64,000 nt of DNA, from positions 806,001 to 870,000 of the forward strand of contig NZ_CP008896.1 in NCBI RefSeq assembly GCF_000730425.1. The letters are read 5' to 3'. The first letter of the stretch is position 1; each line of letters begins with the position of its first letter. Below are positions 51,491 to 60,481 of the stretch, in pieces. The translations under genes were made by a program, and so were the position numbers. The notes beneath the pieces are model-generated. The model made no database searches. It had not been told where the DNA came from and was given only the letters and a program-made list of their open reading frames with translations. The stretch comes from Pseudomonas fluorescens (lineage in GTDB: Bacteria; Pseudomonadota; Gammaproteobacteria; Pseudomonadales; Pseudomonadaceae).

Positions 51491-52264
51491 ATGCCGCTGA
51501 CACGCTCGTTTCTCCTTACCGGTCTGCTGGCCACCTGTACCCTTCCTGCCTTCGCAACCCCCCAAAGCCCAAGCTACGGTCCGCAGTTGCAAGGCTTCCA
51601 GTACCCCTATCCGGTCGAACATTTCGACTTCCAGTCCCAGGGCCAAGCCATGCAGATGGGGTATATGGACGTGCCCGCCAAAGGCACCGCCAATGGCCGC
51701 AGTGTGGTGCTGATGCATGGCAAGAATTTCTGCGGCGCCACCTGGGAGGCCTCAATCAAGGCCCTGAGCGAGGCCGGCTACCGGGTGATCGCCCCGGACC
51801 AGATCGGCTTCTGCACCTCCACCAAGCCTGCGCACTATCAGTACAGCTTCCAACAGTTGGCAATCAACACCCATCAGCTCCTGCAAAAGCTCGGTGTCCA
51901 GAAGGCGACTCTTGTCGGCCACTCCACCGGTGGCATGCTGGCAACCCGCTACGCCCTGCTCTATCCGACCCAAACCGAACAACTGGCGCTGGTCAATCCT
52001 ATTGGCCTGGAAGACTGGAAAGCCCTGGGTGTGCCCTATCGCAGCGTCGATCAATGGTATGAGCGCGAGTTGCAACTAAGCGCCGACGGCGTGCGCAATT
52101 ATGAGCGCAAGACCTATTACGACGGGCGCTGGAAGCCTGAATACGAACGCTGGGTGGACATGCTCGTCGGCCTGAACCAGGGGCCTGGCCATAAATTGGT
52201 GGCATGGAACTCGGCATTGATTTACGACATGATCTTCACCCAGCATTCTGCATTACAGGGATGA
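51491..52264 (+). pseudogene. Alpha/beta hydrolase, 5' part, interrupted by the integrative element
   Basis: This is the N-terminal two thirds of an exported alpha/beta hydrolase. It has a signal peptide (LLATCTLPAFA), the HGKNFCGATWE oxyanion loop, and nucleophile Ser145 in VGHSTGGML. The native sequence ends at IYDMIFTQ; the last six residues (HSALQG) come from the element. The catalytic Asp and His lie in the separated 3' part at 60212-60481, so this product (257 residues) should be inactive. The substrate class is unknown. Confidence 0.88.
52234..52244 (+). repeat. Left attachment core
   Basis: CTTCACCCAGC is identical to 60211-60221. The copy lies in the hydrolase coding sequence, at the point where homology to the host protein stops. 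Confidence 0.85.
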
Positions 52265-52332
52265 TTCTAGAGAGCCTGTAAACGCCTGTCGACCATCGGT
52301 AAACTATGGGAAATCCATGTTGAGCTAATCAG

Positions 52333-52497
52333 ATGTCGCACGATCCATACCGCAATCCGCACCTCCCGCCCAAGACAATGAAAGACAAACTCTCTGGATA
52401 CTTCTACATCGCATTGGTTGTGGGGTTGAATCTCTTCGGTTTGTACCTGCTGTTTTCCGGGAAGGTCCATGACATGGGCGACTTCTTCCGTAAATAG
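52333..52497 (+). CDS. Small single-pass membrane protein, 54 residues
   Basis: The reading frame starts at ATG (MSHDPYRNPHLPPKTMK) and has one clear TM helix (YIALVVGLNLFGLYLLF) and a short polar tail ending FFRK. It is one of the few rightward genes in the element. No family was recognised. The membrane helix and Pro-rich N-terminus favour a real gene, but no strong ribosome site was seen. Confidence 0.45.
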   Translation: MSHDPYRNPHLPPKTMKDKLSGYFYIALVVGLNLFGLYLLFSGKVHDMGDFFRK

Positions 52498-52545
52498 CCC
52501 GCATCGACTGCCAGTACGGCGACACAACTACAAGAAACGAAAAAA

Positions 52546-52561
52546 CCCGCTCATTGGCGGG
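52546..52561 (-). terminator. Terminator for leftward transcription
   Basis: CCCGC (52546-52550) and GCGGG (52557-52561) form a stem, and on the minus strand it is followed by a run of six T residues. It would end transcripts from the leftward genes of the element. Confidence 0.7.
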
Positions 52562-52711
52562 CTCTTGGGACACTGGATGTTCGAAGTGATGTTCGAAGCT
52601 ATCTAGCTAGCACACTAGGTGTGCACAACGAAGGGCAAGATCAAAATCAACAGCAGAAGCGATGATCTGCGTTGATATTGTTTGTTATGTGCGCTCGACC
52701 TTCGCTCTTGG

Positions 52712-52736
52712 GGTGATGCTGCTGACGCAGGAAGAG
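52712..52736. repeat. Imperfect direct repeat, copy 1
   Basis: The 3' part GCTGACGCAGGAAGAG (52721-52736) matches GCTGGCGCAGGAAGAG at 53654-53669 with one mismatch, and both are preceded by GTGATG. The copies flank the OB-fold gene. The meaning is unknown. Confidence 0.45.
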
Positions 52737-52902
52737 CATTATATGGACTGCCAGAATCTTGTCAAGATAAATCGCTTGTATTTCTCTTAAAAAGGCGTAT
52801 AAGCGGCTCCCGTTGCGCACATCGAAAACCGTCTCAGCACCCATCAACACCATGTAATACAAGGCTTTCAGCCGGTTGCGTTCGTGTGGTTCACGTCTTT
52901 AC

Positions 52903-53415
52903 CTACCAGACGAATGTACACTCGTTGGACATAGGCGTCTTGGCAACATCACCTCGGCCAGTACACGCAAGTGTGATTTCCTCGCCCGGCTTCAAGGCTG
53001 CGGCGAACTTCTGATTGCTCTCCGCCAGTGCAAATTGAGGCTCCATAAACTGGTTAACGCCACCTTTCATGGTGATGTATGGCTTGCCTCGGAAATCGGT
53101 GTTGATGCTGGCTACGGTGCCGGTCACTTTGAACGGCTTCCCCTTGAAAGTCTGGTCTGCTGCGTATGTATTAAGTTTGTAAGCTTCTGCAATGTCTGAT
53201 GCCGTGAAGGACTCCAGTGTGGCAACCCGCTCTGCTTCTTTCTGTCGCTGCGCCATTTCATCAACATAGACGCCGTTGGATGCGGATGCTTTTGGCTGCG
53301 ATGTGTCGTTGGCTACGCCCTTGATAACGATGTACGCAAGGCCAACCGCAAGCACGATACCGAGAGTCCTTTTTGCTGACACAGCCACATTCCTTGAAAG
53401 TGATGAAGAGGCCAT
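52903..53415 (-). CDS. Membrane-anchored OB-fold protein (tRNA_anti-like)
   Basis: The protein of about 170 residues has an N-terminal membrane anchor or signal (RTLGIVLAVGLAYIVIKGV), a coiled region (EMAQRQKEAERVA) and an OB-fold domain with FKVTGTVASINTDFRGKPYI and LKPGEEITLACTGRGDV, as in the tRNA_anti-like family. Two Cys near the C-terminus could pair. The start is uncertain: ATG 53415 is given, the frame is open to 53460, and a GTG a few codons further in has AAGGA upstream. Such proteins are common on phages and islands; function unknown. Confidence 0.65.
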   Translation of the reverse strand: MASSSLSRNVAVSAKRTLGIVLAVGLAYIVIKGVANDTSQPKASASNGVYVDEMAQRQKEAERVATLESFTASDIAEAYKLNTYAADQTFKGKPFKVTGTVASINTDFRGKPYITMKGGVNQFMEPQFALAESNQKFAAALKPGEEITLACTGRGDVAKTPMSNECTFVW

Positions 53416-53460
53416 ATGGTGGCAGGATGGCATGTGAGCGTCCAGTACGTGACATGACAA

Positions 53461-53912
53461 AACTTCGGGTGCAAAAGAACGCCAAGAAGAACATTCACAC
53501 GCACAACGACATCGCCACCAACGTGCAATCCACCAACATCAGCGATGTGTCGCCAGATGTCCCTTCTCTCAGGAAAATAGCCCCGTTCGAATTTTTTTTC
53601 GATGCACATTCGATGTCGCTTGAAACTGTCAGCCAGAAAATAAGTGGTGATGTGCTGGCGCAGGAAGAGACTCATTCTGGAAAATATCCAGTCCCCGCAA
53701 TTTTTTTCAATGCACTTCGATAGTCGTTTGGTTTTTCAGCCGGAAATTCAAACTGGCTATCCGTCCCACCTGCTTAGCCTGACACGGGTGGCCCATTTAA
53801 AAGCTGTCTTGATTATGAAATAACACTGACGTTCTCAAACACAGAGACGACAAAGCCCCGCGTTGGCGAGGCTCTAGGGCGTTGTGTAAACCTTTATGGG
53901 GAGTCGTGGAAG
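53461..53912. other. Intergenic region of the element with repeats
   Basis: No confident gene. Two similar segments of about 33 nt, each with a poly-T run followed by CGATGCAC or CAATGCAC and a CGAT-GTCG/CGATAGTCG end, lie at 53589-53621 and 53697-53729. A weak leftward open frame (53313-53675) crosses one of them but shows no family resemblance. Confidence 0.4.
53589..53729. repeat. Pair of imperfect direct repeats with poly-T cores
   Basis: Copies at 53589-53621 and 53697-53729 share the layout AATTTTTTT, C[GA]ATGCAC, TTCGAT and GTCG. They are about 108 nt apart. They may be iterated binding sites or the product of a local duplication. Confidence 0.45.
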
Positions 53913-54482
53913 TTATGCAGCCTTCCAGTAGCGCTTGACTGTAGTGAGGCCGATGGAGAGGTGACGGACTGTCTGAGCTTGTGTCAGGCCGTTGGCCTTG
54001 CAGGCTTTCACACCTTCGATGGTGGCCGTTGCCTTGGGACGACCCAGCTTCTTACCTTCGGACTGGGCACGGGCCAAACCTGCTTGTGTACGTTCGATCA
54101 GCAAGTCACGTTCGAACTCAGCGACAGCGCCAAGGATTTGCATTGTCATCTTTCCCGCTGCACTGGTCAGGTCCACACCGCCAAGGGCGAGACAGTGAAC
54201 ACGGATACCAATCGATTCCAGACGTTCGACAGTGGCGCGTACATCCATGGCGTTGCGGCCTAGACGATCCAGCTTAGTCACGATCAGCACGTCTCCCGCT
54301 TCCATCTTGTGCAGGAGGGATTGAAACCCTTTGCGTTCGCTGGCGCTTACCGAACCCGATACCGTCTCAACCACTACCCGATCCTCCCGCACGTCGAAAC
54401 CAGCGCGCTGCACTTCTATGACTTGGTTGTCGGTAGTCTGATCGCTGGTCGATACACGGGCATAAATGAAAGTGCGGGCCAT
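53913..54482 (-). CDS. Small serine recombinase (resolvase/invertase family)
   Basis: This Tn3-resolvase/DNA-invertase type recombinase has 189 residues. The catalytic domain has Ser11 in [11 protein letters not shown], the conserved [16 protein letters not shown], and the E-helix [21 protein letters not shown]-terminal helix-turn-helix follows ([24 protein letters not shown]). It may resolve multimers, invert a segment or aid stability of the element; its target was not found. It is distinct from the large recombinase at the right end. Confidence 0.9.
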
Positions 54483-54613
54483 TGTGCTGCTCCTGTCGGA
54501 CCGAGTGGGTCGCTTTAACGTGGGTCCATAATATCCAAGGGTCGGTTTAGAGTAAACCCTATTTTATGGCCCATTCATCCAGTTATTCCCGGCAGGTCCA
54601 CTTGACGTTCGTT

Positions 54614-54835
54614 TTACCGACCCATCCTGACCTTGAAAATCCCAGCGGCGATGGCAGATGCGTTTGCATCGAGAGTGTCCAATGCGGTGACGGCGTTCTC
54701 GTGGGTTTCGCTTGAGCCACTGGCTTTGGCCCACAACGCCACTTCTTCAATCGCTGCTGCAAGCGCGTGCTGGTTGTGCAGCAGGAGGGTTAGCACGTCC
54801 GCTATCGCGATGTTTGCATCTGTGTTGTCTGGCAT
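54614..54835 (-). CDS. Small hypothetical protein, 73 residues
   Basis: The small, mostly helical, Ala-rich protein (VLTLLLHNQHALAAAIEEVA, then ETHENAVTALDTLDANA) has AAGGA 8 nt before its ATG. It has no TM helix or recognisable domain. It is oriented like the neighbouring element genes. Confidence 0.5.
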   Translation of the reverse strand: MPDNTDANIAIADVLTLLLHNQHALAAAIEEVALWAKASGSSETHENAVTALDTLDANASAIAAGIFKVRMGR

Positions 54836-55360
54836 GGCGGTCGTCCTTGATGGGGTGGCTAAGATCGTAGCTCAGCCACTTGATGAACGGGTTGGCGTTC
54901 AAATGCAAAATCCACATGGCCCAGGTCGAATGTGTGATGGAAACGCTGGTGACGCACTTCTGTGTGAAACGGAGCGACCTTAACCCGTCGAAACTGTCCA
55001 GATTTTGCGTGCAGGCGGAGAAAACCGGCTTTTGCTTGGTGTTCTGGAAGGCAGAGGGCTCTAGAATCAGTGTTTCCGGGAATTGCACTATACGAACGCC
55101 CTTGGATAACTGCATTCAATGGCCCAATTCCGACCGTTAAAACAGGGTTTATCGAGGGTTTTTCCATACTTCTTTTTGTATGTATTGAGGTCAGCTCACT
55201 GGTGTTCTCCTTCCGCTCGTTGGTGACATGGCGAACGTAAGATGACCACCCACCGCACACGTCCCATGCACACTTAAAATGGCTGTAAGCCCCGGTTTAT
55301 ATGGCCTACAAGCGAATCGCACCGTGTGCGTTACACTTCTACGGAGTGAATCCGTTTGTT
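54836..55360. other. Stretch without a confident gene
   Basis: Open frames exist on both strands (for example rightward 54880-55140) but none has a convincing ribosome site or recognisable domain. The right end carries a perfect hairpin (55351-55370) that overlaps the stop codon of the HNH-like gene. Confidence 0.4.
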
Positions 55361-55370
55361 CTAAAACGGA
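55351..55370 (-). terminator. Hairpin at the end of the HNH-like gene
   Basis: TCCGTTT (55351-55357) pairs with AAACGGA (55364-55370) over a six-base loop that holds the stop codon of the leftward gene. A related dyad (AAACGG-N8-CCGTTT) is at 58156-58175. There is no clear T tract. Confidence 0.4.
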
Positions 55371-56554
55371 GCTGGTATAAGTTCGCGAACAATTGATACG
55401 GAGCCGACGTACAAGGCGTCTGGAGCAATGTAAGGTGTGCAATCATCCAAACCTTCAAGGAACGATTCCGTCACGCTCAGGGAGGCGCGTAGAGGCTGCT
55501 CGACAACTGACACAAGGGCTTCGGTTGGCTGGTATATGGCCCGGCTCGCCAGTGCCTTGGCGTACATTGCGTCGATGATCGAAGTGACTGTATGGGCGGG
55601 CTGTCCATGCAACATGTCGAAAACCAATCGAAGGTCGATAGCATCGAAGGCGAAGTTGTAGTTGAAACGAAAGTTTGTGTTGGCGAACAGGAGCTGGATA
55701 CGTTCGAGGGCTGGCAACAACTCAGGGCGATACGCCTTGCCGATACGTTCCCACTCGCTCAGTAAAACACTGGTGTCATTGTCGTAGCCAAGTCGTACAC
55801 GGAAATCACCTACAGGGGTTTTGCCTTCAAGCTGGCGTTTAATGCCATTCAGAATACGAGCTGACGCCGTTTCGATTGTTTTCAAGTGTTCGGTGTGGTC
55901 TGGATTGGCCGGGTCAAGATGATCGACTAACCACGAGTACAAGGCTTGTCGCTTACTTGGTTTGATCTTGCGTGACTGGACTACAGCCTGCACCACGTCT
56001 TCACCGATCAGCTTTATAATGCGCTGCACTACTTCCGCGACGTTGGCGTCCACGGATACTGCGAAACGGGGCAAGAGGTCTTTACGGGGGATGGAGGCGC
56101 CGCCGCTGTAATGCCTGGCACCGTGCGAACGATTGAGCGCCATTGGCGCAATGACTAGATTGTCGGCTCTGAATAGGCCGATGGAAGCTTTACCACGTAC
56201 AGGGGCGATATGGGACAATTCGAATGGGGCTTCGCCATGTTCTTTCCTCAACCCCCAACCATTCATCCGCTGACAACTTGCATACACATCGTACAGCGCT
56301 TCAAGTTGTTGCTGGTCGAAGTGACGATAAATCTGGAGTGTGCCTGCTCTGATAGCCTGACGGGCGAGTTCGTAGAAGAACGGGGAAGTGGTGGCATTGC
56401 TGATTTGTCTAACGTGGCGTGCTTTGTTGTTGAAGCTCGTGCGACATGATGTGTTGCAGAATTTCGCTGTTTTGCTGCTAGTGCGAAAACGCTTTTTGCA
56501 CAGTTGGCAAGTTGGTTGGCGTTTAACGGCTGCTTTGGTTGTAGCTGGTTTCAT
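55361..56554 (-). CDS. HNH-like protein with N-terminal zinc finger
   Basis: The 397-residue protein has an N-terminal finger C-x2-C-x13-C-x3-C (CQLCKKRFRTSSKTAKFCN). A helical segment leads to an HNH/His-Me-finger-like block: ELSHIAPVRGK, FRADNLVIAPMALNRSHGA. The rest is helical with no recognised domain. A nuclease or other DNA-acting role is inferred from this pattern. ATG 56554 is chosen because GGAG lies 9 nt upstream; a GTG at 56614 would add 20 residues. It overlaps the end of the small finger gene by 32 nt. Confidence 0.65.
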   Translation of the reverse strand: MKPATTKAAVKRQPTCQLCKKRFRTSSKTAKFCNTSCRTSFNNKARHVRQISNATTSPFFYELARQAIRAGTLQIYRHFDQQQLEALYDVYASCQRMNGWGLRKEHGEAPFELSHIAPVRGKASIGLFRADNLVIAPMALNRSHGARHYSGGASIPRKDLLPRFAVSVDANVAEVVQRIIKLIGEDVVQAVVQSRKIKPSKRQALYSWLVDHLDPANPDHTEHLKTIETASARILNGIKRQLEGKTPVGDFRVRLGYDNDTSVLLSEWERIGKAYRPELLPALERIQLLFANTNFRFNYNFAFDAIDLRLVFDMLHGQPAHTVTSIIDAMYAKALASRAIYQPTEALVSVVEQPLRASLSVTESFLEGLDDCTPYIAPDALYVGSVSIVRELIPAPF

Positions 56555-56696
56555 TTGTGTTTGCTCCGACAAGGATAGCTGGGGATGGGGTTCGATTTGA
56601 TTCTTGGTTGTCACGACGGCAAATGCCCGAGCAGAAAGGTTTAACTTTCGTTACTGCGAATACATGGCCGCACTGTTTGCACGTACAAAGTTTCAT
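56523..56696 (-). CDS. Small zinc-finger protein, 57 residues
   Basis: Almost all of the protein is one finger, C-x2-C-x12-C-x3-C (CKQCGHVFAVTKVKPFCSG), followed by a polar Ser/Asn-rich tail. GGAG precedes the ATG by 8 nt. The same spacing scheme recurs in the overlapping HNH-like gene and in the 60-residue protein at 57830. It is probably DNA- or protein-binding; the function is unknown. Confidence 0.6.
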   Translation of the reverse strand: MKLCTCKQCGHVFAVTKVKPFCSGICRRDNQESNRTPSPAILVGANTNETSYNQSSR

Positions 56697-56716
56697 GGGG
56701 ATAACTCCTGATTTGA

Positions 56717-56935
56717 TTAGTAGGCGTAGTGCGGGAGTGCCCACGCGGGGCGATCTTCCTTCACTTCTGTTTTTCGCCAAGCCCTTCGGCCAGTTGGCAT
56801 GGGCTCTGGTGGTTGGCGTGTTCCCATTGCTTCGATTAGCTCTTCGACCAATTGAATGCGTAGGGCGATAGGATATTCAGCGGCATACTCTTGCAGCACG
56901 CTCAAAATTCCTTGCAGCAAGGCGGGTTGGTTCAT
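56717..56935 (-). CDS. Small hypothetical protein, 72 residues
   Basis: The reading frame starts MNQPALLQGILSVLQEYAAE with AGGA 9 nt upstream, then has a helical region (YPIALRIQLVEELIEAMG) and a basic, Pro-rich end. No domain is recognised. It is part of the compact leftward gene series of the element. Confidence 0.5.
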   Translation of the reverse strand: MNQPALLQGILSVLQEYAAEYPIALRIQLVEELIEAMGTRQPPEPMPTGRRAWRKTEVKEDRPAWALPHYAY

Positions 56936-56945
56936 TCGGGCTTTC

Positions 56946-57194
56946 CTAGTGGGAGTTAATATTTGAGTTATGGGATGTAGCTCGCATAACTTCAATGGAC
57001 ACTATTTTCCGTGTCTGCTCTTCGTATATAGCTCTGTCTTGCGAGCGCTCTAACTGGAGCCGATTGTATGTTTGCCGATTCAGGTCAATTGCGTGCTGAC
57101 GGACGGACTCAGTTTCTGCCCCTTGGCTAAAGTGCAGTATCACAATCAGTGCCCACGTCATACAGAAGGCGAGCGGTATCTTGCCGATGTACAT
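56946..57194 (-). CDS. Small membrane protein, 82 residues
   Basis: It has an N-terminal TM helix or uncleaved signal (IPLAFCMTWALIVILHFS) followed by a charged helical tail (QHAIDLNRQTYNRLQLERSQ). GGAAAG lies 5 nt before the ATG. Short anchor plus coiled tail is common for lysis-spanin-like or inhibitor proteins on mobile elements, but nothing here decides a role. Confidence 0.5.
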   Translation of the reverse strand: MYIGKIPLAFCMTWALIVILHFSQGAETESVRQHAIDLNRQTYNRLQLERSQDRAIYEEQTRKIVSIEVMRATSHNSNINSH

Positions 57195-57263
57195 GGCACT
57201 TTCCTTTATATGGGTATATGGGGAGTGGCCCGGGGGCCATCCGGGTTTAGCCTCTACGGTCTA

Positions 57264-57770
57264 TCACTTCGAAAGCTCTGCACGAATACGGGTTTCGATT
57301 GCATCGCGTTGAGCCTGACGCTCCGCTGCCAGCTCTTTTTCAACCTGCCGATTAATGTTCGCTTCTTCAAGTGCTACCTGCCGAGCAACAACTGCATTGT
57401 TATGCTCTTCGATCTCTTTCTTGTACTTCGCTTCCACTTCCAAGAGCAGAGCTTTGATTTCAGTTCGCTGCTGCATTTCCGGTTTATAGAAGTAGACATA
57501 GTGTGAAGCTCCAACGTGCTGCATTGTCCCGAACTCATGCAGCGTGCAACCTTCTGCGATCTTCTCCAGATACTTTGGAATGATTTCAGACGGAGTTACA
57601 GCTAGCTCCGCGATGTAGGCGCCAATCACCGTCTTTCCAATTGCACGACCTGTCTTCGGATCAGTATCGGCGTAGGCATCATAACCATGCTGACGGTCCT
57701 TATACGCGGTTGTGGCTGCATCTTTCAGAGCTTGTAGTTCTTGCTTCACTTCTTTTCGTAGAATCGGCAT
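57264..57770 (-). CDS. Hypothetical coiled-coil protein, 168 residues
   Basis: The N-terminal half has a compact region (KTVIGAYIAELAVTPSEII, then HEFGTMQHVGASHYVYFYK). The C-terminal third is a long charged helix (VEAKYKKEIEEHNNAVVARQ, EKELAAERQAQRDAIETR), probably a coiled coil. AAGGAAA precedes the ATG. No family was recognised. Confidence 0.6.
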   Translation of the reverse strand: MPILRKEVKQELQALKDAATTAYKDRQHGYDAYADTDPKTGRAIGKTVIGAYIAELAVTPSEIIPKYLEKIAEGCTLHEFGTMQHVGASHYVYFYKPEMQQRTEIKALLLEVEAKYKKEIEEHNNAVVARQVALEEANINRQVEKELAAERQAQRDAIETRIRAELSK

Positions 57771-57829
57771 TAGTTTGTTTTCCTTGTAGTTGAGTAATGT
57801 GGGTTGGCCGTTCGAATTGGCCTATTTCT

Positions 57830-58012
57830 TCATTGCGGTTCATCTTGCTCATCGATGAAGTTGTTCTCATTGACCGATAGATCAACCAGATTTTTCTTGT
57901 TCGCTCTATGTGCTGCCACTCGACAGCGGATGCTGCAATAGCTGCGGATACGAATACGCTCTGGAGCGTGTGTACAGCCGCAATACGCGCAGCGGGTAAC
58001 CTTGTTTGCCAC
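57830..58012 (-). CDS. Small zinc-finger protein, 60 residues
   Basis: The protein is one finger, C-x2-C-x14-C-x3-C (CAYCGCTHAPERIRIRSYCS), with basic residues around it and an acidic tail. The start is GTG 58012 with AGGAG upstream. It is the third protein of the element with this cysteine scheme, after 55361-56554 and 56523-56696. Confidence 0.6.
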   Translation of the reverse strand: MANKVTRCAYCGCTHAPERIRIRSYCSIRCRVAAHRANKKNLVDLSVNENNFIDEQDEPQ

Positions 58013-58590
58013 TAGGGGGCTCCTGTTCTATGGGTGTATGGGTTGTAACGATTGTGGACGGGATAACAAAAATGGCCGCTAGGGCCATTCTCGATTTCAA
58101 CGCCGATTGAATTAGTGCTGTCTCCATCACCCTACAGCGAAGGGTCTATCGAACCAAACGGTGCTGACTCCGTTTATTCTGATGTACCAGTTTTGCCAAA
58201 TGCCACTGGGTGGACACGAGGTAGCGGGAAACCAATACCGCTATTGGCATTCTCAAGCTCACACAAGGGATATTTGAGGGTATAGAGGAACCACGCTGAA
58301 AGTGGTTCGCCCACCGTCACTGGAAGGAGTAAACAATGACGATGAGATAGGAAATAGATGGCAGTAACGGGACGCTACCACCAGACAACAACAGCAAACC
58401 CATTCAGACTATGATTGATTAAAAATCTGTTGTTGGAAGGAGCGATAAACTTTATCTGTATCCTTAAGCTATTCTCGCACGAGAATGCTGTTCTGTCAAT
58501 AATCGTTACCATTTTACTTTAAATAAAGTGTATGTAACCCGTATCCAAACATCGAATCTCGCAAAGCCTCCAATTTGTTATCTAGACAAC
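58013..58590. other. Noncoding region left of the large recombinase gene
   Basis: No gene seen. It holds a leftward terminator hairpin (58071-58089), a dyad AAACGG-N8-CCGTTT (58156-58175), and an inverted pair CAACAACAG (58386-58394)/CTGTTGTTG (58427-58435). Promoters of the leftward small genes are probably here. Confidence 0.45.
58071..58089 (-). terminator. Terminator for leftward transcription
   Basis: AATGGCC (58071-58077) pairs with GGCCATT (58083-58089); on the minus strand the stem runs into TTTTTG. It would stop transcripts coming from the recombinase gene. Confidence 0.65.
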
Positions 58591-60138
58591 TCAGTCAACC
58601 TCCAGACTAGTAGCAACATCACTTGCACGCAACGCTTTCAACCTATCTACAACCGTTGTTGAAACAGGACGCTCCTTACCTACACGATGAATAGGCAACG
58701 GGAACAACGTCCCATCAGGCCAACGCACTTTATGTACATCCTTGGCCCTGCCCCACCCTTCGTATCTGAATGTTCCTTCTTCTGTGGCAATGGAGCCATC
58801 TGGATAGCACACCATCTTATAGCCAACACTCTGCAACAAGGCGTTTGCTTTTATTGGGTCTTGGTTGAAATTACCGATGTCCGCCAATCTGTCTTTCAAT
58901 GTGACACTATCGTCGATAAGCCCATCCTTCTCTGACTGCAACACCTTGGCTTCTGCCTTGAGCCTCTTAAACTCTTGCAACATTTCGTCGCCATCATCAT
59001 CAAGTTCTGTTAAGAGGGCCACCGCCCTCTTTATTTTCTTGTTTAACTCTCCCAACTGCCCATCAATCTCTATTGCGCGCTTCTGCGAAACCGATAACAC
59101 TTGCCCCTGCAAGGCTCTGATTGCGTATGCAGGGCTTGACATGGCGTATGCAAGGGCAATCACAGGCTCTGGTATGGAGCGTGCGTTGGAACAGCCTACA
59201 GAACCTCTGCGAGCACGACTAGAACATTCCATTACTGCTTGTTTGCTGGTGGTAAACACTTTCGTGTTGAAGTTCTTCCCGCACTCGCCACATACAACAA
59301 GTCCTGTGTAACGGTGCTTTGTAGGGGCACCACGGAGACGGAACTTATCTTCCATACGTTTCTGTACACGGTAGAACAATTCAGGAGCGATCACGGCAGG
59401 GTATACATCAGCTATCCCGTTCCACTCGCCTATAGCAGTTCGGTTATTCATCCAACGCTTCACAGTGCTAGGCGCCATACGTGACAACAGAGGATGATCG
59501 CTACGCTCTAGGATGCGTTCAAAGATTCGACGTTCACCCAAGCCGCTGGCGTAGTCTTCAAATGCTTGTTTCACGAGAGGTGCAATGTCTTCGATCAACG
59601 CGCCTTCGGATGTCAGCCACACAGGCGTGTTTCGCTTTGGTGTGACGCCCTCGACAGCAGCTTTCCTCCTGCTGGCGTAGCTCGCCTTCATACGGCGACT
59701 GAGAGCGTCGCTGTACTGGTGAGCCTGTTGTATCTGCGCCACCAGCATAAAAAGGTTAGTGCTGTTCGCTGACTCTCTGCTGTATCTGGCTCCGCCGTCT
59801 AGAGTCACGATGTCAACACCAGCTTTCACAATTCGAGATACGATCGGCAGCATATCCATTGGCTCAAGTCGCCCGATACGATCAATAGCCTCGATCAAAA
59901 TCACATCGCCCGATTGAATACTCCCGTTCTCAATTGCAGCAAGGAGCAATCCGAATCCGCTTTCAAGGTGCTTCCCGCTGAAACCAGAAATCCCCAAATC
60001 CTTAAAGCTTTCCGTCCACAGTGGGTATCCGGGGTTATCGTCCAACCACCTTGAAAGCATGGCGGTCTGTCTTTCGTGGCTGCTACCCTTGGCCTGCTTG
60101 CCTGTCGAGAATCGAATGTAGGAAATCGCCTTTGGCAC
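58591..60138 (-). CDS. Large serine recombinase (integrase of the element)
   Basis: This large serine integrase has 515 residues. The catalytic N-terminal domain has Ser11 in ISYIRFSTGKQ, IEAIDRIGRLEPMDML and the SRRMKASYASRRKAAVEG region. A recombinase domain and a zinc ribbon follow (VVCGECGKNF to GSVGCSNA), then a coiled coil (about 385-450). Such enzymes integrate elements between short cores like the 11-bp one here. GTG 60138 (AGAGGT upstream) is preferred; the frame is open to 60216, inside the attachment core. The gene reads away from the right end, which lies 73 nt upstream of its start. Confidence 0.88.
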   Translation of the reverse strand: MPKAISYIRFSTGKQAKGSSHERQTAMLSRWLDDNPGYPLWTESFKDLGISGFSGKHLESGFGLLLAAIENGSIQSGDVILIEAIDRIGRLEPMDMLPIVSRIVKAGVDIVTLDGGARYSRESANSTNLFMLVAQIQQAHQYSDALSRRMKASYASRRKAAVEGVTPKRNTPVWLTSEGALIEDIAPLVKQAFEDYASGLGERRIFERILERSDHPLLSRMAPSTVKRWMNNRTAIGEWNGIADVYPAVIAPELFYRVQKRMEDKFRLRGAPTKHRYTGLVVCGECGKNFNTKVFTTSKQAVMECSSRARRGSVGCSNARSIPEPVIALAYAMSSPAYAIRALQGQVLSVSQKRAIEIDGQLGELNKKIKRAVALLTELDDDGDEMLQEFKRLKAEAKVLQSEKDGLIDDSVTLKDRLADIGNFNQDPIKANALLQSVGYKMVCYPDGSIATEEGTFRYEGWGRAKDVHKVRWPDGTLFPLPIHRVGKERPVSTTVVDRLKALRASDVATSLEVD

Positions 60139-60210
60139 GGGGAACACCTCTAAAAGCCTTGGAAACTCGGGATGGGCGAAGGATATCATTCTTCTACATA
60201 TTGCAGAATC

Positions 60211-60221
60211 CTTCACCCAGC
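60211..60221 (+). repeat. Right attachment core
   Basis: This is the second copy of CTTCACCCAGC, identical to 52234-52244. The host hydrolase frame resumes directly after it. Confidence 0.85.
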
Positions 60222-60481
60222 CGGTGTACTACGAGTTCAAGGACCTGCAGGTGCCGACCCTGCTACTGATCGGTACGTCTGATATCACCGCCATCGGCAG
60301 CGATAACGCACCGCCTGAGGTCAAGGCCAGGATCGGCCGTTACAACGAACTGGGCAAGCAGGTGGCCAAGCTCATTCCCCACTCGACCCTGGTGGAGTTC
60401 CCTGGCCTGGGCCATGCACCGCAAATGGAAGAACCTGCGCGCTTTCACCAGGCGCTGTTACAAGGGCTGAAGGCACTCTAA
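60212..60481 (+). pseudogene. Alpha/beta hydrolase, 3' part, separated by the element
   Basis: These 89 codons continue the hydrolase cut at 52244: FTQPVYYEFKDLQVPTLLL, then the catalytic-Asp region GTSDITAIG and the catalytic-His region PGLGHAPQMEE, to the natural stop at 60481. No start codon or ribosome site serves it, so it is probably silent unless the element excises. The dehydrogenase gene follows 26 nt later. Confidence 0.88.

Follow-up and report, generated by a model that had tools for sequence, protein, structure and literature searches.

The Bacillus elements SPbeta and skin carry a large serine recombinase (LSR), use an attachment site (attB) that lies within a gene and restore that gene on excision. 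The same combination of LSR, intragenic attB and restorable gene is found in an insert of 7,977 bp (positions 52245-60221) that divides an alpha/beta hydrolase gene in a stretch of 64,000 nucleotides of Pseudomonas fluorescens (NZ_CP008896.1, positions 806,001 to 870,000; hereafter the window). In contrast to SPbeta and skin, this insert shows no sign of a host developmental programme or of a benefit to the host. We favour, with a probability of roughly 0.6, the reading that it is an integrated site-specific mobile element belonging to a Pseudomonas family of probable phage satellites.

Phage satellites of the P4-like and PICI kinds carry a tyrosine integrase together with AlpA and a primase. 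None of these three had a Pfam or PHROG match among the window open reading frames (ORFs) scanned, and the element, which has an LSR instead, falls outside those groups as passages of PMC4936722 describe them. The Vibrio cholerae PLEs come closer, since they have an LSR integrase with att sites and no directionality factor recognised in the element, the LSR using the phage protein PexA for that purpose (passages of PMC6002521). Passages of PMC12987554 (Nature 2026) report a PLE tape measure and chimeric tails, with a chaperone and a hub predicted, and present the PLEs as the first satellite family known to build such tails, other satellites having putative tmp genes only. PLE11 encodes a tape measure and a baseplate hub (PMC12987554), as do the tail-bearing relatives of the window element, and the expected helper is a lytic myophage in both cases, here from genes alone. 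Judging from the same passages, however, the genus, the target and the presumed helper differ; the tail set of the Pseudomonas relatives adds Dit-like, spike and neck1 proteins and has no relative of the tail chaperone of phage VCM, and none of these tail genes is recognised in the window member. PLEs are defined by a V. cholerae host, ICP1 as helper and homology of their genes; with a Pseudomonas host and a comparison by description, the family is not filed as PLE.

Other described elements share fewer traits. PICMI, minimal satellites of virulent Vibrio phages, resemble the window member in being small, with few genes and no capsid remodelling genes, but have int, alpA and a primase gene and integrate beside fis, whereas the window element has an LSR, no recognised AlpA or primase, and splits a coding gene (passages of PMC10803314). 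The Pseudomonas tmRNA islands I23, I44 and I55 likewise have no transfer genes and short flanking repeats, and precise excision and carriage by a jumbo phage are described for I55, but a tyrosine integrase, the tmRNA site and defence cargo set them apart (passages of PMC12595487); neither "tape measure" nor "baseplate" occurs in the main text of that paper. AH14b, which is P4-like, is also a Pseudomonas satellite of a larger phage and encodes one phage tail-assembly protein, but with a XerC-type integrase, AlpA, primase, a prophage helper and a tail protein of the lambda tail assembly I type (passages of PMC4936722). The Pseudomonas satellites and islands compared have tyrosine integrases in the relevant parts of both papers (PMC4936722, PMC12595487). 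A search of PMC full texts, with bioRxiv and most subscription journals outside its scope, gave among the titles and openings of abstracts listed no description of LSR-borne Pseudomonas elements with such tail genes.

The limits of the window element are set by an 11-bp direct repeat. CTTCACCCAGC occurs exactly twice in the window, as the attL core (52234-52244, +) and the attR core (60211-60221, +), against a chance expectation of 0.07 and with two copies in none of 100 shuffles. An earlier note on this DNA, made from the letters alone, had placed the repeat at these two positions, and no third copy was found in the 64 kb. It had also predicted that removal of 52245-60221 would reunite the hydrolase halves in frame, which holds: the 5' part (51491-52244, +; Pfam Abhydrolase_1, E 1.8e-22) and the 3' part (60222-60481, +) join into a frame of 338 aa that reads IYDMIFTQ and then PVYYEF across the junction. 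In the split state the 5' open frame runs six codons into the insert, to a stop at 52264. The presumed nucleophile motif GHSTG lies upstream of the junction (Ser145 by counting along the joined translation), and the presumed Asp and His regions lie after it. The GC content of the element is 50.6%, against 59.7% in the remaining window, and all 89 flank windows of the same length are above it (55.5-62.9%).

Sites of LSRs consist of inverted arms about a central dinucleotide. Here the attP left arm ATTCTGCA (52245-52252, +) is inverted to the right arm TGCAGAAT (60202-60209, +), and the joined ends of a circle would read TGCAGAAT-CCTTCACCCAGC-ATTCTGCA, a perfect 8-bp inverted repeat with its arms 5 nt from AC (GT on the LSR strand). 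Because both arms keep this distance, the AC at 52238-52239 and 60215-60216 is the likely crossover point. A composite repeat-plus-arm score of 20.7 compares with a highest value of 18.0 among 60 shuffles of the attR side. The element limits in the earlier note are thus borne out, although its wording "to the base" was too strong, as the crossover could fall anywhere within the 11-bp repeat.

Of 57 genomes searched for the junction (36 of the genus, own included), 31 match the hydrolase. Apart from the own gene and a fragment of 44 bases in G012, these are 29 longer homologues, and all 29 cross the junction uninterrupted and match the junction that had been predicted. With an intact homologue as query, 309 of 398 genus genomes have a match at E <= 1e-40. 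Splits were judged in 19 of these 309 (16 with several matches and 3 weak ones), among which the gene is split by an element at this site in the own genome and in G285, a Pseudomonas cyclaminis record; several of the 19 hold a second, complete paralogue. In another of the 19, G084, the hydrolase is divided over two contigs (G084:C21 and G084:C64), the second starting at residue 254 just past the att site, possibly owing to a further insertion.

The LSR of the window element (58591-60138, -; 515 aa) has the Pfam domains Resolvase, Recombinase and Zn_ribbon_recom, all three above cut-off, and belongs to the integrase family phrog_95 (6.2e-54). Its GTG start, set by alignment with relatives, lies about 70 bp inward of the attR repeat, while the open frame extends to 60216. 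A search of the 398 genus genomes, own included, gave 86 with a match at E <= 0.001, from which a panel of 31 chromosomal loci in 29 genomes was taken (outside the own genome, E <= 4.2e-69), with 10-20 kb of DNA read per locus. Matches weaker than E 4.2e-69, namely a paralogue in the own genome and all places ranked from G373 downward, stand outside this panel; the paralogue is a second LSR-like gene (G000:C1:3653490-3654902), 32% identical to the window LSR. A single-protein LSR scan of genome contigs found nothing and an alignment-based scan one locus, in P. cyclaminis. The LSR protein cluster (90% identity) is present on 14 contigs, the longest of 6.36 Mb.

The best LSR relative in the panel, in G285 (locus L062; 55% identical), is inserted at the same hydrolase site, with the repeat CTGGGTGAAG and an insert of 12,216 bp whose cargo differs from that of the window element. 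This element also encodes a 188-aa tyrosine-recombinase-like protein (L062:3913-4479, -; phrog_216, E 1.9e-40). Still closer LSRs (66-70% identical) are found on three metagenomic IMG/VR contigs of about 25 kb, G419, G420 and G421. G420 starts within the 5' part of the hydrolase and ends beyond its 3' part, while in G419 and G421 attP is re-joined, with the same core, and nothing in the 19-20 kb searched matches the hydrolase. G419 closes as a circle of about 24.9 kb through a 97-bp end overlap, whereas G421 ends without overlap; the re-joined attP of both and the closure of G419 indicate that free forms of relatives exist.

In the aligned sites of L062, G419 and G421, the GT position and the flanking CTGG/TTGG and GAAG are in common, and the arm form GCNGCA is related to the TGCAGAA of the window. 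The right half of the G420 site agrees with the others except for one core base (GCAG for GAAG). At the left end of this contig (L135 near 143-175), the hydrolase sequence extends as far as ATCTTCAC, and the arm behind it is like the right attP arm. The core, whose conservation in relatives was one of the checks suggested earlier, is the same, that one base of G420 apart, in the four readable LSR relatives (L062, G419, G420 and G421; 54-70% identical), and in a maximum-likelihood tree of 36 LSRs the five hydrolase-site proteins form one clade with support 100/100. Both attP-type inverted arms around a short core and an uninterrupted attB in relatives were found, and the free circular relatives are an indirect sign of recombination activity on attP and attB. 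As read from the aligned DNA, this LSR lineage uses a conserved hydrolase motif as attB, with core CTTCACCCAG and AC as the likely crossover, and the element lies between attL and attR, which fits integration by its own LSR.

The tie to the hydrolase holds for this LSR clade and not for the element family at large, since no hydrolase sequence occurs in the DNA read at the other 30 of the 31 chromosomal loci. Applied automatically to the 31 relatives, repeats, arms and joined frames gave ambiguous limits in the GC-rich DNA; the true site of L062 ranked second and third in its listings and was settled by the hydrolase halves. Limits are accordingly trusted for the window element and L062 alone, those of L065 (16-bp repeat, 12,346 bp), L064 (13-bp repeat) and L081 (22-bp repeat) being likely. 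The flanks of other members suggested FKBP and AtoE-like targets, tentative names on which nothing here is built. The loci L074 and L075 have near-identical LSRs and LSR-side flanks in genomes of two species, which reflects either a recent transfer or a conserved site.

The evidence for a satellite comes from the larger relatives. G419 encodes a 752-aa tape measure, a 307-aa baseplate hub, Dit-like and neck1-type proteins, a spike with a GpV apex motif just below the Pfam cut-off and a 115-aa virion protein. It has 34 ORFs, 33 listed ones of at least 70 aa, 28 of which were scanned, and one of at least 130 aa over the contig end, which spans the circle junction (L134:12084-12474, +). Among the 28, no terminase, portal or capsid family was found, portal and terminase being checked via PHROGs alone, and the single head-and-packaging PHROG falls on the 115-aa protein, a homologue of VCM vsp97, which is a tail-cluster gene. 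Of the listed ORFs, only the LSR and the tape measure are longer than the 409-aa homologue of Zn417, a backbone protein of the family. The 10 main ORFs of the window element also have no head or packaging PHROG, so that neither element, within these ORFs, appears to have a head, portal or terminase of its own.

The tail proteins point to one phage group. For the G419 hub there are matches in 477 phage records, with Pseudomonas phages making up 227 and the best at 49.8% (Psxphi15, VCM). The Dit-like protein matches 227, of which 226 are Pseudomonas phages. Hub and Dit-like protein are 50% and 48% identical to proteins of phages of 96-102 kb, and the 12 matches listed for each are to phages 93-102 kb long. 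VCM is classed as Otagovirus, a genus that we take to belong, with Pakpunavirus, to the Vandenendeviridae. Passages of PMC12846349 support this placement and call Pakpunavirus phages obligate lytic. The VCM genes for tape measure, Dit, vsp97, hub and spike are contiguous, and these five and neck1 have panel relatives among the 27 VCM structural-region proteins compared, a stretch that excluded portal and terminase (both judged by PHROGs only). The paralogues vsp101-103 have relatives in L139 alone, and no relative of the major capsid protein, sheath, wedge, fibres or tail chaperone was found among panel ORFs. L139 is the P. aeruginosa record pHPA0698-2, which is annotated with recombinase, tape measure, baseplate and spike proteins, and whose tape measure, hub and Dit are above Pfam cut-offs. 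This record (NZ_CP137508.1) is a 96-kb circular "plasmid" that holds chromosomal-type genes including minCDE beside the tail-bearing family member.

The panel ORFs were searched with profiles built from proteins of the window element, G419 and VCM. They detected tape measures of 725-759 aa in six of the 31 chromosomal loci (L062, L066, L068, L069, L071 and L079), as well as in all three IMG/VR elements (666 aa in the piece of G420 read) and in L139; two tape-measure fragments in L073 and a 76-aa spike fragment in L081 were left uncounted. In 59 background loci (222 kb), neither the tape-measure profile nor any other family profile had a match. Pairwise searches link the ten tape measures together and none of them to the remaining long ORFs that served as controls (116, among them G421's own tape measure), those of L062, L066, L069 and L079 being tied weakly to the rest (best 1.3e-7 and 2.4e-7, via L068). 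Tail-bearing relatives in which no head genes are recognised suggest a little-known family of phage parasites, and we infer that the family depends on helpers. These relatives have genes whose products could act on, or stand in for, parts of the helper virion, and the window element has none that matches the 27 VCM proteins; not every satellite has such genes, PICMI being a described one without them (passages of PMC10803314).

Zn417 (55361-56614, -) is a zinc-ribbon protein of 417 aa, with an HNH-like motif by eye and a weak PHROG HNH match (0.0012), whose relatives start about 20 codons later. It is full-length in 10 of the 31 chromosomal loci, matches of 52-107 residues in L065, L079, L084, L089 and L092 being uncounted, and ORF168 (57264-57770, -; 168 aa) occurs in 19. 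All organisms named among the matches listed for the two proteins are Pseudomonas, and none of these homologues has a Pfam family; both plasmid records that match Zn417 are classed as non-mobilizable. Zn417 itself has no Pfam family, no match among 50,697 phage records and a model of pLDDT 80 without a PDB match, and the ORF168 model (pLDDT 89) has no confident fold match, no fold search of either giving E <= 0.001. Further backbone ORFs encode 92 aa (56717-56995, -; common to G419-G421 and L065) and 82 aa (56946-57194, -; common to L065 and L071). The zinc-ribbon proteins Zn85 (56523-56780, -; 85 aa), found by PHROG scan and family profiles, and Zn60 (57830-58012, -; 60 aa), found by PHROG scan downstream of the LSR, have profiles that match each other's proteins, and neither was counted.

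These backbone genes are common to elements with different LSRs. Between the window and G419-G421, the LSRs are 66-70% identical and Zn417 34-38%, whereas L070 and L085 have LSRs only 46% and 38% identical to that of the window, with Zn417 at 74-75% and the small resolvase at 87-88%; for L065 the LSR is 47% identical and five other proteins 80-89%. Since the identities of LSR and backbone disagree, LSR/att modules and backbones recombine. No tape measure was found in the DNA read of L065, L070 and L085, and among the five hydrolase-site members the window element is the only one without it. The window element is therefore a tail-less mosaic, combining the LSR and att sites of the hydrolase-site clade with the backbone of tail-less elements that use other LSRs. 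One genome, G255, holds both L070 and L085, two family members with different LSRs.

The remaining genes of the window element are few. A 189-aa small serine recombinase of the resolvase/invertase type (53913-54482, -; Pfam Resolvase 4.8e-36) confirms the earlier statement that the element has two serine recombinases of unlike size. A 185-aa tRNA_anti-like protein (52903-53460, -; Pfam 2.4e-15) matches the Sie-like superinfection exclusion family phrog_8545 (7.7e-21) and is common, within the panel, to the window and L065 only. The earlier claim of no phage genes consequently stands for head, tail and packaging functions among the window ORFs scanned but not for this ORF, and the relatives carry tail genes. 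A 73-aa protein of family phrog_12397 (54614-54835, -) is present in 10 panel loci, window counted, and has no match in phage records despite its PHROG match. Beside attL, a 54-aa ORF (52333-52497, +) with one likely membrane helix by eye and no Pfam family above cut-off has an 89% identical counterpart beside attP of G421; no candidate directionality factor was recognised, and nothing beyond conservation in G421 speaks for such a role of this ORF. PADLOC recognised none of 10 ORFs as a defence gene, Rfam found no RNA, and a repeat search no iteron array.

Several observations weigh against a satellite. The window element has no recognised replication gene, packaging gene or directionality factor and matches none of the 27 VCM structural-region proteins, and the backbone proteins have no assigned function, the Zn417 and ORF168 models matching nothing confidently. 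The tape measure of L062 is identified through a chain of profiles, reaches that of VCM only via L066 (E 0.0021) and L068, and matches no PHROG and no Pfam tape measure. The expected left arm is not seen at the left end of G420, which may stem from an unusual recombination. A full-length tape measure is lacking in 25 of the 31 chromosomal loci in the 10-20 kb read, and the hub is nearly absent from the 398 genus genomes (one weak match, 26%), which argues against a full tail module being common in chromosomes. With a rare hub and a tape measure in few loci, the tail genes may be cargo in part of the family.

These points favour the strongest alternative, in which the insert is a genomic island of the ordinary sort, borne by an LSR, or a cryptic integrative element. 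It would integrate and excise but move only by chance, through generalised transduction or transformation, and the tail genes of relatives would be accidental cargo. The window element holds just the LSR, the resolvase, the Sie-like protein and ORFs without assignment, and most members have no tail module in the DNA read. Against this stand the recurrence of the tape measure in six parts of the LSR tree, where no head protein of the VCM type was found next to it, the tail-tip gene set of the 25-kb members, which is like that of one phage group, and the free circular forms among relatives. An island of this kind is thus unlikely, though it deserves serious weight; the lack of a recognised tail gene in the window element, the rarity of the hub and the unassigned backbone are the reasons why the satellite reading is put no higher than stated above.

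A prophage remnant, left by decay or deletion of a temperate tailed phage that uses the window LSR, is considerably less probable. The LSR does belong to a phage integrase family, and relatives do have tail genes, but the circular relative of about 24.9 kb also has no recognised head or packaging genes in the ORFs scanned, vsp97 homologue aside, and Zn417 is absent from the phage records. Parts of the tail-less backbone moreover recur with four LSRs (window, L065, L070 and L085), which indicates a persistent type and not a single decayed copy.

Excision of skin and of the comK prophage is the model of a developmental switch. The earlier note had read the split as reversible gene inactivation, and a regulatory switch of the hydrolase to the benefit of the host would agree with exact restoration on excision and with the free forms of relatives. 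Exact restoration is nevertheless no proof of a switch, because any site-specific integration yields it. No element gene points to hydrolase control, no link between cargo and hydrolase is recognised, and the family is not tied to the gene at the other 30 loci in the DNA read. Among the 19 genomes re-examined, the hydrolase copies of G107, G175, G358 and G051 appear frameshifted, interrupted elsewhere or partial, so that the gene looks like a dispensable landing site. A programmed switch is thus not supported and very improbable, although reversibility of the insertion is plausible given the circular relatives. Overall, the earlier note is supported in seeing a serine-recombinase element, in the limits that it gave and in the restored gene; its functional interpretation is not supported, and the family with larger, tail-bearing members had escaped it. 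Finally, an integrative mobilisable element that has an unrecognised relaxase or oriT and is moved by conjugation with the aid of a plasmid would suit the several ORFs without assignment and the tail-less members, which need no phage gene, but is highly improbable in view of the lack of a relaxase domain in the 11 window element proteins (Pfam), the non-mobilizable typing of the plasmid records with Zn417 and the tail genes of relatives.

If the window element is a phage satellite, its life cycle could be as follows. The LSR alone would integrate the circle at attB, while excision would need a directionality factor, perhaps supplied by a co-infecting phage as in Vibrio PLEs, and particles of the helper would then take up the excised circle. 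In particles formed with a Pseudomonas myophage of about 95 kb, the tape measure, Dit-like protein, hub and spike of the tail would come from tail-bearing relatives themselves, whereas the window member, without a tail module, would need the helper to provide the entire particle. The split of the hydrolase would be a side effect, repaired upon excision. More tentatively, at slightly less than even odds in our estimate, there may be a large undescribed family of LSR-borne Pseudomonas satellites of lytic Vandenendeviridae-type myophages that independently resembles the ICP1-PLE pair. Its tail-bearing members would combine helper parts with a tape measure, Dit-like protein, hub and spike of their own into chimeric tails; its tail-less type would trade LSR/att modules and take complete helper particles, and conserved coding motifs would serve as landing sites.

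The locus offers LSR-att pairs with a well-defined site, as well as natural tail-less and tail-bearing elements at one integration site that can be compared directly. The satellite reading predicts a helper group, the Pseudomonas myophages of 93-102 kb, among which are phages proposed for therapy. Gene sets of this kind in a second host genus would help to establish how general the hijacking of tails is.

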